From Methanoregula boonei 6A8 (GTDB lineage: Archaea > Halobacteriota > Methanomicrobia > Methanomicrobiales > Methanospirillaceae), in assembly GCF_000017625.1 (NCBI RefSeq), contig NC_009712.1, positions 1,736,001 to 1,800,000 of the forward strand: 64,000 nucleotides of DNA, in the 5' to 3' direction. The position numbers and the translations under genes were made by a program. Under the pieces are notes generated by a model, which saw nothing but the letters and a program-made list of their open reading frames with translations, searched no databases and was not told where the DNA came from. Shown one piece after another: positions 6,685-54,793 of the stretch (positions are counted from its first letter, which is position 1; each line of letters opens with the position of its first letter).

Positions 6685-7559
6685 GACAGGGTCACATCCT
6701 GCACGATATGCCATTCGTGCGGGCGGTATTTCTTTACCTTATGTACATTGATTGAGGGAGAAAAACCTGCGCCCTCCGCAAGATCCTGTATTGTCCCGGA
6801 TACATCACCGATGCTGTGCACATGGATCACGCTTCTCCCATGGACATGGGAAAAAACTGCGGGCAGCATAGTTACGGCATCGAAGTGTCCCATCACTACC
6901 CGGTCGTACGTGCCGGAGAGATGTACACGACAGTCCCCACAGGAAACCTGTACTCGGCCGGCAAGGCCGTTTGCCGCAATATTGCGTTCCAGGTACGCAC
7001 AGGCTACCGGGTTGATCTCCATGGCATGGACTTTCGCCCCGCTACCGGCCATCGGGATAGCGAAGTACCCGATGCCGGCAAACATATCTGCCACCCGGGC
7101 ACCGGCCGGACTTTCACGGACGAGCCGGGCCATCCGCATTTTTTCGTCCCGGTTTCCCTGCGCAAACATCACCCGGCCGGGATCGAGATAGTATGTATAC
7201 CCCTCCTCCCGGTGACAGACCTCTCCTGCACTGCCCCACAGGATCTCGGTCACCGGTGTCCGGGTGACCCCGTCAAGCGATTCGATCCAGAGCACCCCGC
7301 GCGGGTGCCGGAACCGGACAATTCCTGCAACCTCTTTTTCTGCAGGCCGGTCCCCACGCACGACCGCCACGTCGCCCAGCATGAAATAACCCCTGCCAGC
7401 GTATGCGTGGCGTTCCGGGATCTCGCGGTCGAAAGCAAATCCTTCCCTGACCGGTACCCAGGCAGTTTCCCCTTCAACGTAGGGGTGCCGGGTCAGGTCA
7501 ACCCACACCTCACCGCTCACGGCACCCAGCCGATCTGTCCGGACTTCCCGTACCCGCAT
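6681..7559 (-). CDS. Trm5/TYW2-family tRNA-modifying transferase, probably Taw2
   Basis: A 292-residue class I SAM-binding protein of the Trm5/TYW2 family. VADMFAGIGYFAIPMA (156-171) is SAM motif I, and MEINPVAC (180-187) is motif II. At the position where Trm5 methylases have an NPP-type motif this protein reads DRVVMGHFDA (219-228), as I recall for Taw2, the aminocarboxypropyltransferase that extends the wyosine base at G37 of tRNA-Phe. That subfamily choice is an inference; a Trm5-like m1G37 methylase is the alternative. Confidence 0.75.
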   Translation of the reverse strand: MRVREVRTDRLGAVSGEVWVDLTRHPYVEGETAWVPVREGFAFDREIPERHAYAGRGYFMLGDVAVVRGDRPAEKEVAGIVRFRHPRGVLWIESLDGVTRTPVTEILWGSAGEVCHREEGYTYYLDPGRVMFAQGNRDEKMRMARLVRESPAGARVADMFAGIGYFAIPMAGSGAKVHAMEINPVACAYLERNIAANGLAGRVQVSCGDCRVHLSGTYDRVVMGHFDAVTMLPAVFSHVHGRSVIHVHSIGDVSGTIQDLAEGAGFSPSINVHKVKKYRPHEWHIVQDVTLS

Positions 7560-7575
7560 AGGATTACCCGGGAAC

Positions 7576-8619
7576 TTACCGCATCACGACCATTGTGTCG
7601 CCATCGCGGAGCACCTGCACATTCTCCCCTGCGCTCACCGCCATCCACTGACGTTCCGTGACCTCGATGGTTGCACCTGTTGCCGGATCAAGGAGCCCAA
7701 ACATCCCGTGCGCAATATATGCCACAAGCGCCGGCACGGCGTTTCTTGCATTGCCCACCAGCCGCACGATATCTTCCTCTTTTACCGTCCGGTTCCTGCC
7801 CTCATAGAGATCAAATACCCGGATTGTGCGGGAATCCGACTGCTCAATCTCCGCGTAGGTCCGGGGCAGCTTTACCACATCATGCCGCTGGTACCGGGGC
7901 AGCCGGACAAGATACGTGATCCGGAAGAGCTGCCGCCCGTTCTTCTCGCCGACCAGTTTTGGGTGGGTCGTATACCTCCCGCCAAGCTGCGCCGTGATCC
8001 CCTGCACGATCAAAAGGCCGATATGCTGGGAGCCTACTGTGACATCAAGGCCATCCCGGGTCTCGGCCATATCGGAGATAAACGACAGCCGTTCCCCGCC
8101 CTGCTGGAGCGAGTCCTCGATCTGGGTCGCAATTGCCGCTGCCTTCTGCATTTCAAAGGGGCTCATGTCGCGTCCGTCAGCACGCACCTGCACAATCCCT
8201 TCATAATAACTTCCGGTGATCCGGTTGCACCGGTCGCACTGCTCCCGGTGCCAGGCGATCTCCACGGTGCACTCTTTTTCTACGGGCTGACCGTACAGGG
8301 TTCCGCTGATCTTCAGGTAGGCCCGGGAACGGTTGGAACTAAGCTCGCGGATCCTGACCTCGATCAACCGCTTTTTTACGTCCGGGTGGAAATGCACCGC
8401 GCTGCGTGCCAGATCCGGGGCCAGATCTTCACGCTCCCGGTTCGTATCGGTCCACGTGTTCACCTGCTTTGTTGCCCCGCAGCCGGGGCAGTGGATGCTT
8501 GTTACCCGCGTATCGCAGGTGGCCCACTGCGTGTCCGCTACCCGGCAGGCCGCACAGAGCCCGTCTGAATCTGAAGGTTTGCCGCACTTGGGGCAGAACC
8601 GGTCCTGTATGGAGGTCAT
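7576..8619 (-). CDS. archaeal NMD3-like ribosome biogenesis protein
   Basis: A 347-residue homologue of eukaryotic Nmd3, the 60S export adaptor. The N-terminus has zinc-binding CxxC pairs at residues 9/12, 22/25 and 44/47, plus a later CDRC pair. The rest matches the NMD3 core with an eIF5A-like C-terminal part (RTIRVFDLYEGRNRTVKEED). Archaea have no nucleus, so a role in large-subunit maturation is inferred. I chose the ATG at 8619, which overlaps the DUF424 stop as ATGA. Confidence 0.88.
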   Translation of the reverse strand: MTSIQDRFCPKCGKPSDSDGLCAACRVADTQWATCDTRVTSIHCPGCGATKQVNTWTDTNREREDLAPDLARSAVHFHPDVKKRLIEVRIRELSSNRSRAYLKISGTLYGQPVEKECTVEIAWHREQCDRCNRITGSYYEGIVQVRADGRDMSPFEMQKAAAIATQIEDSLQQGGERLSFISDMAETRDGLDVTVGSQHIGLLIVQGITAQLGGRYTTHPKLVGEKNGRQLFRITYLVRLPRYQRHDVVKLPRTYAEIEQSDSRTIRVFDLYEGRNRTVKEEDIVRLVGNARNAVPALVAYIAHGMFGLLDPATGATIEVTERQWMAVSAGENVQVLRDGDTMVVMR

Positions 8620-8909
8620 AGCCGGTAGATCTGGGCATGCGGGACGCTGCCGATCATGATGCAATCAGCCCGGGTGATCAGTCCCATCTTCACGGCAACC
8701 CCCACGGCACGCTCTCCCATGAGGTTGACGTTGTCTCCCCGCAAAAGGGCTTCAGTGACAGCGGCCTCATCTGCATGCGTAGTGCCGTAGAAGCCCTCAG
8801 TCACCGTGACCCTGAGGTCTCCGTGGGTGATGGTGGTGTTGAGCAGTTCGCGGTCACAGACCGCAACCACATCGCCCATCTCCGGCGAGTGGTGGATTTT
8901 TAAGAACAT
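8616..8909 (-). CDS. DUF424 family protein
   Basis: A 97-residue protein of the archaeal DUF424 family (MFLKIHHSPEMGDVVAVCD start, RGDNVNLMGERAVGVAV core). Its function is not established. Coupling to the NMD3 gene by an ATGA overlap fits the usual suggestion that it works in translation or ribosome assembly, but that is only context. There is no clear ribosome-binding site; 56 bases separate it from the TatD-like gene. Confidence 0.8.
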   Translation of the reverse strand: MFLKIHHSPEMGDVVAVCDRELLNTTITHGDLRVTVTEGFYGTTHADEAAVTEALLRGDNVNLMGERAVGVAVKMGLITRADCIMIGSVPHAQIYRL

Positions 8910-8965
8910 TAATCAGATCGTTTGCAGGGCTGACCTGATAAAAGATGGGAAGGCAACCGGTGCAT

Positions 8966-9793
8966 CTACAGCACGATGCGGACGCCGTACACCTTCTCCA
9001 CGGTCTCCCCATGGATGCGCCAGCAGTCCTCTTCGGTAATAGTACCCGATTCAAGCAGTTTTTTTGTGATCCTCGGGACCGACTTTGGGCCCGTCACAGC
9101 GCCGGGCCGCGAGTTTTCGTCCATGAAGTCACTCTCCATGGTAAAGGGGCGGCGTTCGCGGGCAAGGACCGGCACCGCCTCGTGCCGGGCCACAAGCGAG
9201 GGATGGAGAGGGGTATCCGGAGATCCGTAATGCTTGATGACGCGCCCCGGGTCCATGCCGGCATTCCGTGCCATGTCGACGACATCGGCGCACGGGCCGC
9301 TCTCCGCGTGGATCTGGAGGGCGCACCGGTATCCTGCGGCAAGGGAGAGCGCATGAGAGAGCACGACATTTGAGGCAGAGAACACTTCGGGGCTGACCTC
9401 GTAGTGCGGCCGCCCGCTCTTGAGCGCCACAGCCTTTCCCTCACGGACATAGCCGGCAGCGCAATCGAGACCCCCCTTCATTACCAGTACCGCATCCTCA
9501 AGTGGCATTCGTTCCGTAAGCCGGCTGATCTCGGCCGGGTGGATCCCAAGGATGGGAAAGACCACAAGGCCGGTCTCCCGGATCAGCCCGGCGATACGCA
9601 GGGTCTCGTCAAAGACTCTGGCGTAATCGTTCCCTGTTACCGGCTCGACCCCGAGCGACCACGAGGGTTTGGAGACAAGGAAAAGATGCGTTCCTCCCCC
9701 ATGCAGGAAATCCTTTGCCGCTTCGACCCCGCGCCCGTTTACCGGGTCGAAATGGATATGATCGTCAGTGATCGGAAAGAGCCGCGATCTCAT
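8966..9793 (-). CDS. TatD-like archaeal metal-dependent hydrolase
   Basis: A 275-residue amidohydrolase-fold protein. The metal-binding start is DDHIHFDP (His12, His14); LGIHPAE near residue 101, an HAESG segment in the middle and SDFMDE near 215 supply the other expected ligands. The family is annotated as TatD-related nucleases or hydrolases; the archaeal branch has no confirmed substrate. The start at 9793 lies inside the end of mptD (29-base overlap), so they are probably cotranscribed. Confidence 0.8.
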   Translation of the reverse strand: MRSRLFPITDDHIHFDPVNGRGVEAAKDFLHGGGTHLFLVSKPSWSLGVEPVTGNDYARVFDETLRIAGLIRETGLVVFPILGIHPAEISRLTERMPLEDAVLVMKGGLDCAAGYVREGKAVALKSGRPHYEVSPEVFSASNVVLSHALSLAAGYRCALQIHAESGPCADVVDMARNAGMDPGRVIKHYGSPDTPLHPSLVARHEAVPVLARERRPFTMESDFMDENSRPGAVTGPKSVPRITKKLLESGTITEEDCWRIHGETVEKVYGVRIVL

Positions 9794-10142
9794 GGCACTC
9801 CAGGACCTTCATGAGAGGGTAACCGTTCTCCGGTGCAAGAGTGGCCCGGCAGTACCAAAAGCCTACCCGGGTCACGATCTCCACATCAAACATGAGACCG
9901 GAAAGTTCGCTGTACCCAAATACATTCTTTTGCATCCGAAAACGATCGAGCCTCACCGTGATCTCCTCGACAAAAGGCTGGAGGACCACTGCCTTTTCAA
10001 TCGCGGATTCCACGCTTGCCGCAGATTCCTGTGCAATCGGGGTTCCCACCCACTGGTGGTAGAGCGCCCCCAGTTTGATCCCGGCTTCAAAGATAGCCTG
10101 CTCCCGGTCTGTTGGCCTGTCGTGTTCGTGTGCTCCTTCCAT
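9765..10142 (-). CDS. mptD: archaeal-type dihydroneopterin aldolase MptD
   Basis: A 125-residue protein of the MptD family. It cleaves 7,8-dihydroneopterin to 6-hydroxymethyl-dihydropterin and glycolaldehyde in tetrahydromethanopterin synthesis. The conserved core ALYHQWVGTP (26-35) and FGYSELSG (75-82) match the family as I know it. I chose ATG 10142 because a GAGGTG ribosome site lies six bases upstream; an upstream GTG at 10151 lacks this. It follows mcm by 10 bases. Confidence 0.83.
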   Translation of the reverse strand: MEGAHEHDRPTDREQAIFEAGIKLGALYHQWVGTPIAQESAASVESAIEKAVVLQPFVEEITVRLDRFRMQKNVFGYSELSGLMFDVEIVTRVGFWYCRATLAPENGYPLMKVLECHEIAALSDH

Positions 10143-10152
10143 GATCTGCACC

Positions 10153-12264
10153 TCATATCAGCTGGATGATCCCCGACTTTGGCTCCATGGCCTCGCCATG
10201 CCGCAGGAGCATCTCGATTCCTTCCCTTACTTTGTCGTGGGCAAAGCCCTTTGCCGCTGCAGCCTCGATCACCTGATCGATGGAAGCGCGCCGGCCTTCG
10301 CCACCAATGTCCCGGATCGCATCCTTGATCACCCGGACAATGTCGCGCTTCTCCTTGGAGATACCGGTGGCCACCTTGTCAATATCGAAGTTACCGGTCT
10401 TTGCATCGTAGGCGATCTGGCGCAGGCAGGCGTCCACGATGTGGATCACGCGCTCCGCGTCGCCGGCCTCGATCTTATCAGAGAGCCGTATCCGGGCGCT
10501 TGCCTCTGCAAGCCGGACGAGCGCTTCCAGTTGCCGGGCCGTTACCGGGACAGGCTTGTTGGGCTCCGCGATCCCCCTGAGCTTGAGATAGTAACCGACA
10601 ATCGCCTCCTTTGCCTCCGCAGAGAGGATGGGAAAACAGGTACGCTTGGAGTACGCTACGTACTTCCGGAAAAACGCAGGATCGATATCCGGCATGACCG
10701 GCTTGAGCTGCTGCTCGATAAACTCCTGGGTGACACCGGGGATCGGCGTCTTTTTGTGCTGGGCGATCAGCTCCCCGACGCCGTGTGCTTTAAGGATGTG
10801 CTCGGCAATGGCAAGGTCCCGTTTCTGCTCCGGCTGATCGGTCATGATAAAGATGAGGTCGAAACGCGAGAGGAGCGAAGGAGGCATGTTGATCTGGTCG
10901 GCAATATCGCCGTACATATCAAAGCGCCCGTACTTCGGGTTCGCCGCGCCTAAAAGGGCGCACCGGGACTTGAGTGTAGCGGTGATGCCGGCCTTTGCCA
11001 CGCTGATGGACTGCTGCTCCATTGCTTCATGAAGGGCTGAACGATCCTCTTTTTGCATCTTGTCCATCTCATCCACCGCTGCAATACCCATATCGGCAAG
11101 CACGAGCGCACCAGCCTCAAGCGTCCAGCGCCCTTCGCCAAACTCGTCCTTGACCGCGGTTGCGGTAAGACCGGCCGATGTGGAGGATTGCCCGCTTGTG
11201 TAAATGGCCCGGGGCGAACATTTCACGATATAGCGGAGCAGCTGGCTTTTTGCAATACCGGGGTCGCCTATCAGGAGCACGTGAATGTCTCCTCTGAGAT
11301 GGCTCCCGTCCGGCATCTCTTTTGCGATCCCGCCGAAGAGCTGGAGGGTGATCGCTTCCTTAACGTCCTCGTTCCCGTAGATAGTCGGGGCGATCGAATG
11401 GGTGACCATACGATAGATCATAGGATCCTTGGAGAGTTTTTTGATCTCATCCTCGGCCTCCTCATCGATCTCAACTTCCTCGAACTCTTTTTCCGCGATC
11501 TCGATCGAGTTGCATTCGAGGAAGATGTCAAAGACCGTGCTCTTCTCACCCTTGACCACCCGCTGCATGGACCGGAGGATCCCGTTGATTACGACCCGGT
11601 CCCCGGGCGCAACCGTGCCGGTAAGGTCATCAGTCACATCGATATCAAGCGTCTGCGGCTGCTCGCCGCCCCGCAGGCCCTCGGGGGATTCCTGCACCCG
11701 GAGTTTCTGGGAATCGACAAAAGTGGAACGCTTGGGCACGAGCTCGACCTTCTTGAAAGTACAGCCATCTGTGGCACAGCCATCCGGCTCGATGAACTTG
11801 CCGTACTTCTGGGTCTTTTTGGTGAAATGGCCGGCCGGGCACTTAAAAACAGCCTCCACGATCCGGGGGCGGACCTCGGTGGTCTTCCGGAGGATCCCCT
11901 CGACCGAGATAAACCGGTTGATATCCTCGGACCGGATCTCGCGGATTGCCGTCTTTTTGGGGAGGTTTGTGAACCGGATATTGAGGGCCTTTGGCTCCTT
12001 GCCATCCCGTGTCCTGACCAGCTGGTTGTTTTTTATTGCATCCCAGACATCCTCGAGCACCTTGCCCGGGTTCTCCAGCAGCTCATCGGCGAGAGTGATA
12101 CCGGCTTTGCCGAACCTCTCGATCTGGCGGTAATCAACAACAAGCGATCGCCTGTGCGGGTAAAGGCGCGAGATCTCGCCAAGCTCCTTCTTGTACCGGC
12201 TTTTCAGAAACCGGCCCCAGTCATCGGCACGATCGCCCTGGTGTAGTTCGGGTACCTTCTCCAT
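10153..12264 (-). CDS. mcm: replicative DNA helicase MCM
   Basis: A 703-residue MCM protein without an intein. The N-terminal domain has a zinc site formed by Cys142, His146, Cys163 and Cys168. The AAA+ core has Walker A GDPGIAKS (333-340), Walker B AAVDEMDK (395-402) and an LLSRFDLIF arginine-finger region near 460. A C-terminal winged helix starts about residue 630. It forms the hexameric replication helicase. The start has a clean GGAG site, and rfcS ends nine bases upstream, placing two replication-fork genes in one unit. Confidence 0.97.
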   Translation of the reverse strand: MEKVPELHQGDRADDWGRFLKSRYKKELGEISRLYPHRRSLVVDYRQIERFGKAGITLADELLENPGKVLEDVWDAIKNNQLVRTRDGKEPKALNIRFTNLPKKTAIREIRSEDINRFISVEGILRKTTEVRPRIVEAVFKCPAGHFTKKTQKYGKFIEPDGCATDGCTFKKVELVPKRSTFVDSQKLRVQESPEGLRGGEQPQTLDIDVTDDLTGTVAPGDRVVINGILRSMQRVVKGEKSTVFDIFLECNSIEIAEKEFEEVEIDEEAEDEIKKLSKDPMIYRMVTHSIAPTIYGNEDVKEAITLQLFGGIAKEMPDGSHLRGDIHVLLIGDPGIAKSQLLRYIVKCSPRAIYTSGQSSTSAGLTATAVKDEFGEGRWTLEAGALVLADMGIAAVDEMDKMQKEDRSALHEAMEQQSISVAKAGITATLKSRCALLGAANPKYGRFDMYGDIADQINMPPSLLSRFDLIFIMTDQPEQKRDLAIAEHILKAHGVGELIAQHKKTPIPGVTQEFIEQQLKPVMPDIDPAFFRKYVAYSKRTCFPILSAEAKEAIVGYYLKLRGIAEPNKPVPVTARQLEALVRLAEASARIRLSDKIEAGDAERVIHIVDACLRQIAYDAKTGNFDIDKVATGISKEKRDIVRVIKDAIRDIGGEGRRASIDQVIEAAAAKGFAHDKVREGIEMLLRHGEAMEPKSGIIQLI

Positions 12265-50244: not shown

Positions 50245-51627
50245 TTATTCCCGGCCCGGCCTGTCCCGCTCGATCCTGACAAGCGGCGATCGCCGGGAAA
50301 AGAACGTGGCAATAAACCCGGAGAACTCTTCCTGCCAGCAATCGGCGCCCTCAAGCACGCACCAGTCTTTCCCGAGCGACTCCCGCACGTGCCGGCCGGT
50401 TCCCACGGAGAGAATGGCAGGTGAGCTTATGAGATCCCCGGCCCGGGTAAATTCCCGGGGCACCTCGGTCACGTACCGCCCGTTCTCGATAAACGGCCCG
50501 GGCAGGGGCGAAGTGCGGTACTTCTCCCGGAACTTCTCCGCGTTTACCCGGTTCCAGACCGGCGGTCCTTCGTGGCGGCGGATGGGCGGAAGCTCATCAA
50601 TTATGAGCTCGAAGAGGAGCATGCACCGCCCCGGCCCCATCCGGTAATGGGCGTGGTGTACGGCAAAACCGCTCCGGTCCAGGAGATCCGATATTGCTCC
50701 CGTGCTCCGCTTGAGCTGGGGCACCACGATCTCCTCAATGAACGGTGGGGTGGCAAACGTGACCGCATAAAGCGAGGTGCCCCGCGAGGCAAGCAGTGCC
50801 GCAAGATCGGCCGGGCAGCACGGGTATTCCTTTCGGATACGGAAAAATTCCTCCGAAGGTGCATCGCGGTAGCCCCGGGCTAGCTCCACGAACTCTGCCA
50901 TCCGGTCAAGCGAGACCGCCGCTGCTACGTTGCGCCGGGGATCCACCGGGTCAATTACCACAAGCGGCTCATCGAATTTCTTTGCCGCATGCTTCCCGAT
51001 ATCGATAATCACCGGCGGTCGCCACTCTGCTGCCGCGGCAAGGAGCGGGGCAAACCCGCCGTAATGGAGGACGAGAAGCTCGCAAAGATAGCCCGAGAAA
51101 CCTTCGGTCATCTGGTCGGACCCATAGATCCCCCCGGCCTTTGCGAACTGTTTTAAGAGGAGCACATCGTCGGTCAGGCCGTTGATCTTGTCCGTGATGT
51201 ACCGGGTATGGAATGGTGTCCGGTCCACCGCGCTCTGGATATGTTCAGCGCTTGCCACGTTGTAGCAGGGCACGAGATCCACATCGATCCCCTCAACGTT
51301 TGCATTGATGTACGGGTGTTCGGCGTACTTCTCGTGGAACATGGGAGTAAACGCCCGTGCGATGCTCCGGGCAAGCGCAAGACCCTCGGTTTCGAGTGCC
51401 TCGCGGGGCATCTCCGGGGAAAAGAGCAGGAAGACATCGAGGTCGCGGTCGCCTTTTACCCAGGTGTTCCGGGCAATCGAGCCGACCACCATCCCTGTTG
51501 CTTTCCCGCTCGCATTGATCGCATCAAGCAGCCGGCGCGCAACCCCGGCAATGTACTCGCGCTCCTCTGCGGAAGGGCGGAGCTGCCCGGAAAGGAGCTG
51601 TTCCTCAAACGGGAGCCGGCCGCTCAC
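50245..51627 (-). CDS. cca: CCA tRNA nucleotidyltransferase (archaeal class I)
   Basis: A 460-residue class I CCA-adding enzyme. It builds the CCA end on tRNAs, needed here since the tRNA-Leu gene lacks it. VGSIARNTWVKGDRDLDVFL (48-67) holds the nucleotidyltransferase GS...DLD motif with Asp62 and Asp64; GIDVDLVPCY supplies the third carboxylate. The middle and tail regions match the archaeal body and tail domains. Start is GTG 51627, overlapping the thpR stop. Confidence 0.94.
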   Translation of the reverse strand: MSGRLPFEEQLLSGQLRPSAEEREYIAGVARRLLDAINASGKATGMVVGSIARNTWVKGDRDLDVFLLFSPEMPREALETEGLALARSIARAFTPMFHEKYAEHPYINANVEGIDVDLVPCYNVASAEHIQSAVDRTPFHTRYITDKINGLTDDVLLLKQFAKAGGIYGSDQMTEGFSGYLCELLVLHYGGFAPLLAAAAEWRPPVIIDIGKHAAKKFDEPLVVIDPVDPRRNVAAAVSLDRMAEFVELARGYRDAPSEEFFRIRKEYPCCPADLAALLASRGTSLYAVTFATPPFIEEIVVPQLKRSTGAISDLLDRSGFAVHHAHYRMGPGRCMLLFELIIDELPPIRRHEGPPVWNRVNAEKFREKYRTSPLPGPFIENGRYVTEVPREFTRAGDLISSPAILSVGTGRHVRESLGKDWCVLEGADCWQEEFSGFIATFFSRRSPLVRIERDRPGRE

Positions 51628-52163
51628 CAGGCCACCTCTGCAATATCCTCGTACACCGGTCCGTTGGGAGTGAGCGTGCTCTTCTTAAGCTTGAGACCGG
51701 CAACCATGCAGCTGCCGCAGGGGGCGGTCTTCACTTCCTCCAGGCACCGGAAAAGTGCCGGGTTTGCCACTTTGACCCGGGCGAGCGTTGCATGGGGGGT
51801 AAACGCCCGGGTCTCGCGGGCAAACCCGAGCGGCGCAAGAACGCTTTCGACAGCGCCAAAGACCTCGCGGCCCTTCCCGGCATCGTCGATTGCGCACCAG
51901 ACTGTATGCGGGCTTTTGAAATTGTTGACCGTGATCCGGCTGCCTTTTGCGGCAAACGGCACGGCCTTTATAGTATTTAAGGCACTGATGACCAGCGGGA
52001 TCTTACGCTCGTCTACTTCGCCAAGGAACTTGACCGTGATATGGATGAGCGGGGGATCGACAAATGTGAGCCGTGATGAACTCTTTTTGAACGTATCCTG
52101 CGCTGCTCTCAGGAGCTCCCGCATCTCCTCTGATATCTCGAATGCCACAAACGCCCTGACCAT
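51624..52163 (-). CDS. thpR: RNA 2',3'-cyclic phosphodiesterase (ThpR)
   Basis: A 179-residue 2H phosphoesterase. The two catalytic motifs are HIT (41-43, in HITVKFLG) and HAT (124-126, in FTPHATLARV). It opens 2',3'-cyclic phosphates at RNA ends, for example after tRNA splicing. Coupling to cca by a four-base overlap supports a role in tRNA ends. I chose ATG 52163, so that the protein starts MVRAFVAFE as relatives do; ATG 52175 is the alternative. Confidence 0.9.
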   Translation of the reverse strand: MVRAFVAFEISEEMRELLRAAQDTFKKSSSRLTFVDPPLIHITVKFLGEVDERKIPLVISALNTIKAVPFAAKGSRITVNNFKSPHTVWCAIDDAGKGREVFGAVESVLAPLGFARETRAFTPHATLARVKVANPALFRCLEEVKTAPCGSCMVAGLKLKKSTLTPNGPVYEDIAEVAW

Positions 52164-52334
52164 GACTGTATGCATTGGTTAGTCAGTCCACAATGGTAAT
52201 CGTTTCCATGAAAGAACCCGGTACCAGGCAAAAACCGGGTTTAGCCAGGTACAATTACCCGGGTTTACGGCGGCAGGGATCGTCTTTTATCCAAAAAAGT
52301 GCATATTGCTAAAATGAAAGAGAGGTTAGTGTCC

Positions 52335-52604
52335 ATGCCGGAATCCGTACCCCTGATTGTCTATTCCCTTGAGATGTGCCCGCACTGCGAGATGCTCAAA
52401 AAATTCCTCAAAAACAAGGGATATGCGTATTCCGAAAAGGACCTCTCCACCGCAGAGGCCCTTACCGAGCTCCGGGTAAACGGCGTCTTTGTCAATGAAG
52501 CGCCGGTCCTCCAGCGCGGTGAGGACTTCTACACCACTGATGACATCTTCCCGGCAGGATCGCTTGACGAGAAAAAACTCGGTGCGATACTCTCGGGTGC
52601 ATGA
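52335..52604 (+). CDS. NrdH/glutaredoxin-like redoxin
   Basis: An 89-residue thioredoxin-fold protein with a CPHC active site (Cys15 and Cys18). The stop overlaps the class III ribonucleotide reductase start as ATGA. In methanogens with the NrdD2 type of this enzyme, an NrdH-like redoxin is the known reductant (Methanosarcina barkeri precedent), so this is probably the dedicated electron donor (inference). ATG 52335 follows an AGAGGT site. Confidence 0.85.
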   Translation: MPESVPLIVYSLEMCPHCEMLKKFLKNKGYAYSEKDLSTAEALTELRVNGVFVNEAPVLQRGEDFYTTDDIFPAGSLDEKKLGAILSGA

Positions 52605-54793
52605 TGCCGGCCCGAAGGGAGACCCGGCAACTGACCTTTGGTGGCGGCTTTTCCCCGGCCCTGCCCCCGGTCCGCACAACCGACGGCCACATCGTTGACT
52701 GGGACCGGAACCGGATCGCCGAGCAGATCAAAAAGGAAACAAAACTTGTCGAGTCTTTTTACGGGTACGAGGGCGCAGACGACGCAACCGCACAGGAGAT
52801 CGCAAGGGAGGTCGAGCAGCGCATCCTTGCGCTCGGCCTCAAGTCACTCTCGGGCCCGCTCATCCGGGAGATCATGAATATCACGCTCCTCGAAAAAGGC
52901 ATGGTGCAGTACCGTAACGTCTGCACCCGGGTGGGAACACCTGTCTACGATGCGCACCAGATCGATGTGGGCAAGGGCTTTGAGGCCCACGACAACGCGA
53001 ACCTCCAGGAGAATGCCGAGACCAGCCACAAGAAAAAGGCGGACAAGATCTCTAAAGAACAGTACCTGCTCCAGCTCCCCCCGGAGCTTGCCGACCATCA
53101 CCTGTGCGGTGAGATGCATATCCACGATCTCGAATACTTCGGCACCCGGCCGTTCTGCCAGGACTGGGACCTGAGGTATTTCTTTTATTATGGCCTCATG
53201 CCGGACGGGAACGGGACAAAGGCTTCTGTCGCCGGCCCGGCCAAACGTGCAGAGGTCGCAATCCTCCATGCGGTAAAAGCGCTCGGGAGCGCCCAGACCA
53301 ATTTTGCCGGCGGGCAGGGTTACTACAACTTCCTCACGTTCCTCGCGCCCTACATGGAGGGCATGAGTTACGACGAGATCAAGCAGAACATGCAGATGTT
53401 TGTGTACGAGATGACCCAGATGATGGTGGCCCGGGGCGGCCAGCTCGTCTTCTCATCCGTCCAGCTCTCACCGGGCGTCCCGACGCTCTGGCAGGACAAG
53501 CCCTGCGTCTTTAAAGGAAAAATCTGGGACGGGAAAGAGGCCCCGCGCCGCACCTACGGAGAGTTTGAGCGGGAGGTCCGGCTGCTTTTCAAGGCGCTCA
53601 TGGACGTAATGATCGAGGGCGATTACTGGGGAAAGCCGTTCAACTTCCCCAAACCCGAGATCTCCATTGAGCCGGACTTCACAAAAGAGCGCGAGGAGTT
53701 CAACCGGAACCACCCGGATCTCCCGACATTCCGCGATCTTTATCTCATGACATTTGAGCTTGCCTCCAAGTTCGGGACGCCGTACTACGACAACCAGCTC
53801 CCGGCGTACCGCGGCGCAGGCAAGGGGATCTCATGCTACCAGTGTTGCGCGTACCAGTTCTCCACAGTGGCAGACAAGGACTCGGAGTTTGACAAAAAAC
53901 TCCTTTTCGAAGGTGGCCGGCATTTCTCGATGGGCTCGTGGCAGGTGGTCTCGGTCAACTGCCCGCGTGCAGCCTATAATGCGGAGGGGAAGGACGAACG
54001 GCTCTTTGCTGAACTTCGGGCGCTCATGGATGTGGCCGTCGAACTCTTCAAGATAAAACGCCGGTGGATGAATAATATCCGGGCGAGCGGGCGGATGCCG
54101 TTTGCCATGCAGCGGCCAAAGGACCCCAACACCGGTGATCGCGGGGCAATTGCCGTTGATCTCGAAGGTCTTGTGTACACGATCGGTGTCGTGGGGGTCA
54201 ACGAAATGGTCCAGCACCACACAGGCCAGCAGGTCCACGAGTCAAAGGCGGCATTCAAACTTGCCATCCGCGCCATGACCGAGATGGAACTGTATGCAAG
54301 GAAACTCTCGGCAAAGAACAACATGACCATAGCCCTTGCCCGCACCCCGGCCGAGACAACCGGCCAGCGCTTTGCGGTCGCCGATCTCATTGATAAGCGG
54401 TACCACGACATGGCGGCAAAGGTGATCAAGGGCGACCTCGATTATGCACTCAATAACCTGGGAAAGACCCGCGACCTCCCGATTTACTACACGAACGGGA
54501 CACACGTGGCACCGGGCGCCAATGTCCCGCTCACAAAAAGGATGGAGATCGAGCATGTCTTCTTCCCGATCGTGGACGGCGGAAACATCTTCCACATATG
54601 GCTCGGGGAGGCCCGGCCCGATCCGCGTGGGCTCATGGATATGGCCATGAACCTCTGCCGGAACACGCAGATCGGGTACTTCGCATTCACCCGGGATCTC
54701 ACCGTGCCGCTCCGGCAGTTCCGTGAGTTCCGGCCGGAAAAGAGGGCGGAAGGATCGTGGATGCCACCGGCAGATGTGCCGGCAAAGGCATAA
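52601..54793 (+). CDS. nrdD: class III anaerobic ribonucleotide reductase-like protein lacking the C-terminal glycyl-radical segment
   Basis: A 730-residue NrdD-family protein. Barrel motifs are present: QTNFAGGQGYYNFLTFLAPY, Cys454 in SVNCPRAAY as likely thiyl-radical cysteine, Cys186 in RPFCQDWD, and a CYQCC cluster (412-416). After NTQIGYFAFTRDLTV, where other NrdDs continue into a four-cysteine zinc site and the RVxGY glycyl-radical loop, this protein has only about 33 unrelated residues and stops. The other two forward frames downstream also show no such motif. No nrdG activase is adjacent. It should reduce ribonucleotides anaerobically if the radical domain is provided elsewhere. Confidence 0.88.
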   Translation: MMPARRETRQLTFGGGFSPALPPVRTTDGHIVDWDRNRIAEQIKKETKLVESFYGYEGADDATAQEIAREVEQRILALGLKSLSGPLIREIMNITLLEKGMVQYRNVCTRVGTPVYDAHQIDVGKGFEAHDNANLQENAETSHKKKADKISKEQYLLQLPPELADHHLCGEMHIHDLEYFGTRPFCQDWDLRYFFYYGLMPDGNGTKASVAGPAKRAEVAILHAVKALGSAQTNFAGGQGYYNFLTFLAPYMEGMSYDEIKQNMQMFVYEMTQMMVARGGQLVFSSVQLSPGVPTLWQDKPCVFKGKIWDGKEAPRRTYGEFEREVRLLFKALMDVMIEGDYWGKPFNFPKPEISIEPDFTKEREEFNRNHPDLPTFRDLYLMTFELASKFGTPYYDNQLPAYRGAGKGISCYQCCAYQFSTVADKDSEFDKKLLFEGGRHFSMGSWQVVSVNCPRAAYNAEGKDERLFAELRALMDVAVELFKIKRRWMNNIRASGRMPFAMQRPKDPNTGDRGAIAVDLEGLVYTIGVVGVNEMVQHHTGQQVHESKAAFKLAIRAMTEMELYARKLSAKNNMTIALARTPAETTGQRFAVADLIDKRYHDMAAKVIKGDLDYALNNLGKTRDLPIYYTNGTHVAPGANVPLTKRMEIEHVFFPIVDGGNIFHIWLGEARPDPRGLMDMAMNLCRNTQIGYFAFTRDLTVPLRQFREFRPEKRAEGSWMPPADVPAKA

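Follow-up and report, generated by a model that had tools for sequence, protein, structure and literature searches.

The window analysed here is a stretch of 64,000 nucleotides from Methanoregula boonei 6A8 (C1:1736001-1800000 of a single-contig genome of 2,542,943 bases), and our subject is a class III ribonucleotide reductase (RNR) gene in it, nrdD, which follows a redoxin gene and encodes a protein without the glycyl-radical domain (GRD). In window positions, the locus comprises:

52299..52604, plus strand: redoxin gene, NrdH/glutaredoxin-like, with a CPHC motif; likely start ATG at 52314 or 52335; Pfam Glutaredoxin match, E 4.3e-7
52601..54793, plus strand: large part of nrdD (NrdD-L, hereafter L), 730 amino acids; weak ATP-cone match and complete class III catalytic body, without the zinc/glycyl-radical domain
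54662..54793, plus strand: C-terminal junction and tail of L; GYFAFTRDLTV, then PLRQFREF... and stop

The redoxin stop and the nrdD start overlap by four bases (ATGA), and the C-terminal end of L reads ...GYFAFTRDLTVPLRQFREFRPEKRAEGSWMPPADVPAKA. The Pfam NRDD model (PF13597) matched L over positions 1-510 of 562 (E 1.9e-133, 446 bits) and TIGR02487 over positions 2-529 of 581 (470 bits, cut-off 326); since these matches cover nearly the whole of each model, L is missing the C-terminal GRD only. In an alignment with fused NrdDs of the same type, which carry the GRD in the same chain, L keeps the shared finger-loop cysteine motif GISCYQCCAYQF as well as NAN, the NxN flap motif whose role in NrdD has been described (PMC11226230). 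After DLTV, the fused relatives run on with C...CPNCGS...RVTGY, whereas L instead continues with PLRQFREF.... A six-frame NRDD search just downstream of L gave no match in any frame. The initial annotation, which had described a class III catalytic body lacking its zinc/glycyl-radical segment after DLTV, coupled to a CPHC redoxin and not restored downstream, is borne out on all of these points by the family matches, the gene overlap and the empty downstream search.

That annotation had left three options, namely that the missing domain is supplied separately, that it is replaced, or that the enzyme is not a normal RNR, and had suggested looking for a small RVxGY protein that also has a zinc site. 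Searching the entire genome in six frames with NRDD supports the first option, as it matched two places only, L itself (model positions 1-510) and genome positions 177854-178018 on the minus strand (model positions 521-562, E 5.7e-11). The second match lies in a separate gene:

genome 177845-178204, minus strand, 1.6 Mb from L and outside the window: NrdD-S (hereafter S), a 120-amino-acid open reading frame with an N-terminal zinc ribbon and a complete GRD with RVTGY

The glycine is therefore not elsewhere in the L chain, as had also been considered, but on another chain, and a second full nrdD was not found in this genome by the same search. The S sequence reads MDWSTEQ...KCHTCHLIVDQNPCPNCG...MCPLDNCHCSH...YCPLCGKPVCPECGSHDVVQISRVTGYLQDVSGWNSGKQQELKDRMRYSVA, and in profile searches it matched NrdD families only, plus a weak zinc ribbon, its GRD being of the NrdD and not the PFL type. 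S carries counterparts of the GRD motif set that is missing from L (CPxC, R-TGY, WN, K, EL and R). Across 38 S sequences, ten cysteines, among them the zinc cysteines upstream of the GRD, one histidine of the cluster and residues R92, T94, G95, Y96, W103, N104, K107, E110, L111 and R114 are invariant, and the median dN/dS is 0.09. The gene runs into the start of a neighbour that encodes CbiZ and cysteine-rich domains, within a conserved block (deoxyhypusine synthase, pyrF, S, cbiZ, OB-fold protein) that was compared at 17 loci and bears an insertion in two. The N-terminal ribbon of S has a weak Spt4-like resemblance only. An origin of this ribbon in the zinc region of DNA polymerase DP2 was tried and rejected: single-sequence matches at E ~1e-5 in large frames recognised as DP2 were not upheld by a ribbon profile, which on its own genome, at E up to 1, found nothing of DP2 size and only a weak 27-residue match.

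We surveyed 120 genomes of the order, apparently Methanomicrobiales, for both parts. L and S were each present in 102 genomes and occurred together in 100, with two genomes holding L only and two S only, all four being draft assemblies. The 16 genomes without L, S and NrdG2, the radical-SAM activase, all belong to one genus, g23. L has the same ending in all six families of the order, which is the orthologue comparison suggested earlier and argues against both chance and a frameshift; this order-wide conservation rules out a pseudogene or a sequencing frameshift near 54690, which the initial annotation had named as a possible cause. No GRD was present in the same chain as L at any of the 30 loci read, and among the matches listed there was no L-type NrdD of the order with a GRD of its own, none extending past position 516 of the hidden Markov model. 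Outside the order, NrdDs of the phylum among the matches listed reach positions 560-562, save those cut at contig ends or by inserts. As side observations, two g23 genomes that were checked carry one FeThRed_B gene each, most other genomes having two or more, and one genome (G001) has an extra single-chain NrdD of a different type, 569 amino acids long, at L101:2677-4383 beside its own NrdG-like gene.

When 30 L proteins are aligned with 17 fused NrdDs, the fused set has 145 invariant columns, and L retains all 131 of those that lie in the body, 129 of them at 90% or above and two at 77-87%. The 14 columns lost from L all lie from the first zinc cysteine onward, in the GRD. The short tail L-[KRH]-[QER]-[FY] recurs among the L proteins of relatives, and at loci of family f3 the first zinc cysteine is still present (DLTVCLK...). 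In a tree, the L proteins group next to the fused NrdDs of other families; the topology calls for one or two changes of state and is most simply read as a single split. Separately, we noted intein-like inserts in the large subunit at L211:2204-5887 and L212:1-4521, just before the active-site cysteines (RPF/CQDWD and CYQ/CCAYQF); long L or NrdD frames with the same breaks occur in many other genomes, both in the order and in the rest of the phylum.

The two parts also occur side by side in viral contigs from IMG/VR:

L241 (127,665 bp): S at 7324-7725, redoxin at 7756-7995, L at 8001-10070
L243 (135,061 bp): S at ~7490-7786, redoxin at 7786-8004, L at 7974-10013, FeThRed_B at 9997-10266

In both contigs S, redoxin and L form a tight operon within 2.8 kb, the GRD is absent from the viral L proteins, and L241 has baseplate and tail/tail-fibre genes nearby. 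Judged by gene order, this pairing is the strongest evidence other than homology that ties S to L, to the redoxin and to the disulfide reductase, and the operon would represent a portable split class III RNR. Viral contigs L217-L223 encode an S-like stand-alone GRD with no NrdD within ~5 kb; such an S may serve the large subunit of the host, or an L elsewhere on the contig. Fused NrdDs are found on viral contigs L224-L226, L239, L240 and L242.

The remaining partners expected of such an enzyme are encoded as well. At 29 of the 30 loci of the order a redoxin with CPHC or CPNC lies directly upstream of L. In other families a redoxin precedes the fused nrdD at 11 loci, with nrdG after nrdD in several, so that the redoxin-nrdD-nrdG operons of the fused relatives hold the same list of parts as the split system. 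The search for nrdG proposed by the initial annotation was successful:

genome 1663025-1663576: NrdG2 radical-SAM activase, TIGR02495 above cut-off

A FeThRed_B protein with a rubredoxin-like domain, a candidate ferredoxin-disulfide reductase (FDR), is also encoded in the genome, so that two features of the NrdD3 subtype, a redoxin in the operon and an FDR in the genome, are present. A class I/II reductase gene (PF02867) occurs in this genome and in most relatives; it was not found in 11 of the 109 genomes tested, all of which hold L and S, and one of which (G109) is a single closed contig. NrdG2 was found in ten of these 11, in one just under the curated cut-off, and the sole exception is a draft that is 86% complete and in 580 contigs. 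Judging from their gene content, these 11 genomes would need the split enzyme, unless deoxynucleotides are imported.

The split, its conservation, the co-loss of both parts and the viral operon are sequence-level observations, and our reading of them is that L and S make up a naturally split, obligately two-part class III RNR whose glycyl radical resides on a separate subunit, to which we assign a probability of roughly 0.92. Complex formation, the site and transfer of the radical, the electron route and the origin of the system we infer, the first four because of the established class III RNR and YfiD/PFL mechanisms (PMC8683613, PMC11226230). By this analogy S would dock non-covalently at the site held by the GRD in an ordinary NrdD, and Gly95 of S would be the residue on which NrdG2 forms the radical. 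From there the radical would be handed to the finger-loop cysteine in L (SCYQCCAYQF) for the attack on the ribonucleotide, and the CPHC redoxin, fed by the FDR, would re-reduce the active site.

Several points weigh against this reading. In the cellular genomes of the order that were examined, S is not adjacent to L and sits between pyrF and cbiZ. S has an extra zinc ribbon and might do something else as well. An AlphaFold2 model of S alone is poor, with a pLDDT of 64 that falls to ~50 in the GRD; because of this, and because an L-S complex is only proposed, the docking of S is put forward by analogy. Poor folding in isolation might fit a domain that needs its partner, but proves nothing.

The presence of PF02867 in this genome and most relatives, together with stand-alone GRDs beside intact, fused NrdDs in families f8 and f24, would also fit a situation in which S is merely a YfiD-like spare part, L is a decayed or inactive NrdD and a class II RNR does the work. 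We regard this as very unlikely, given that among the matches listed no L-type NrdD of the order has its own GRD, leaving nothing to spare for, that L keeps every invariant body column, and that 11 genomes, one of them closed, lack a class I/II RNR. Since inteins are present in the L of some relatives, L and S might instead be joined after expression into a full-length NrdD, through split-intein trans-splicing or at the RNA level. Neither L nor S, however, matched an intein (Hint) family; joining would require removal of the conserved zinc-ribbon domain at the start of S, the zinc cysteines of S upstream of the GRD are invariant, and L ends in a short tail, all of which makes joining extremely improbable. 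The unusual architecture could also suggest a glycyl radical enzyme acting on another substrate, which we find scarcely credible, as L scores well above the cut-off of TIGR02487, the strict model for class III RNR (470 bits, cut-off 326), the redoxin, FDR and activase partners are those of RNR operons, and the pair is the sole RNR candidate in some genomes.

Among the closest known systems, the NrdD3 type resembles the split enzyme in its parts. Wei et al. 2015 reportedly described an NrdD3-type class III RNR of Methanosarcina barkeri that works with an NrdH redoxin and an FDR. By alignment and tree, L shares its catalytic body family with the fused NrdDs from other families of the phylum, and the accessory genes are the same (upstream redoxin, NrdG2, and a FeThRed_B protein with a rubredoxin-like domain), but the M. 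barkeri enzyme is a single chain ending in the GRD, whereas the present system encodes the GRD in a gene of its own, extended by a zinc ribbon. NrdD3 is defined by a third active-site cysteine without the glutamate (PMC4493059). L and S would work like a class III RNR; taken as a single-chain member of that class, they lack one defining feature, the GRD in the chain. YfiD/GrcA (PMC8683613) is likewise a small stand-alone GRD that serves the body of a glycyl radical enzyme in trans; it is of the PFL type, however, and its role is the repair of PFL cleaved by oxygen, an enzyme with a GRD of its own, whereas S is of the NrdD type with a zinc site, L never has a GRD and S is no repair part in this order. 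The authors of that work considered only PFL spare parts validated and speculated on others (PMC8683613). The split class II RNR NrdJa/NrdJb of Pseudomonas aeruginosa also consists of two polypeptides, both required, but it is a B12 enzyme whose small part mediates dithiol exchange and carries no radical (PMC4520616). Class I RNR (NrdA/NrdB) keeps a stable radical on a separate subunit, by analogy only, as its radical subunit and chemistry are unrelated. In the open-licence literature we came across no paper that describes a split class III RNR or NrdD, although an earlier description is possible.

A likely source of S is visible outside the order, where S-related stand-alone GRDs of 118-131 amino acids (one in a frame of 194) occur in f8 (genera g56 and g41) and f24, in which NrdD is intact and fused:

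L227:4915-5271, L232:4859-5212, L233:114-503 and L234:4906-5487: stand-alone NrdD-type GRDs, from genomes with an intact fused NrdD (L237, L238)

These four are candidate spare-part proteins for class III RNR. In genome G173, the stand-alone GRD at L235:4819-5160 has a C-terminus that diverges past RVTGY (GWLERVKKAG) and has probably decayed. S and the stand-alone GRDs share a tight CPxC-x4-CPxC-xxH arrangement that is not in fused GRDs, and a GRD tree over 40 shared columns separates stand-alone from fused domains by one branch (support 95/93, a rough figure). The shared arrangement and this branch agree better with a spare part that became obligatory when the covalent GRD was lost than with simple gene fission, with few columns to go on. 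S thus probably descends from a stand-alone spare-part GRD older than the order, which would have become obligatory once L lost its own tail. We lean slightly towards a wider proposal in which the radical cofactor is an obligately separate, exchangeable subunit, evolved from a class III RNR spare part that other methanogen families still possess alongside an intact NrdD, and acquired by viruses either together with L or without it; exchange of S could then replace oxygen-cleaved radical domains.

Elsewhere in the window, the minus strand upstream of the redoxin gene encodes ordinary archaeal neighbours, a CCA-adding tRNA nucleotidyltransferase (50245-51627) and a LigT-like 2'-5' RNA ligase (51624-52175).

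In the literature covered, glycyl radical enzymes hold the radical on the catalytic chain, with YfiD only a repair part. As a natural and stable system, the split enzyme would allow study of the loading and docking of a glycyl radical, of its regulation and of its replacement once oxygen has damaged it; in the NrdD of P. copri, dATP makes the GRD mobile (PMC11226230). Automated annotation will probably call L truncated and S a fragment. The path from spare part to obligate subunit would be traceable, and nearly a whole methanogen order would rely on radical supply in trans, which in some genomes would be the sole visible route to DNA precursors.
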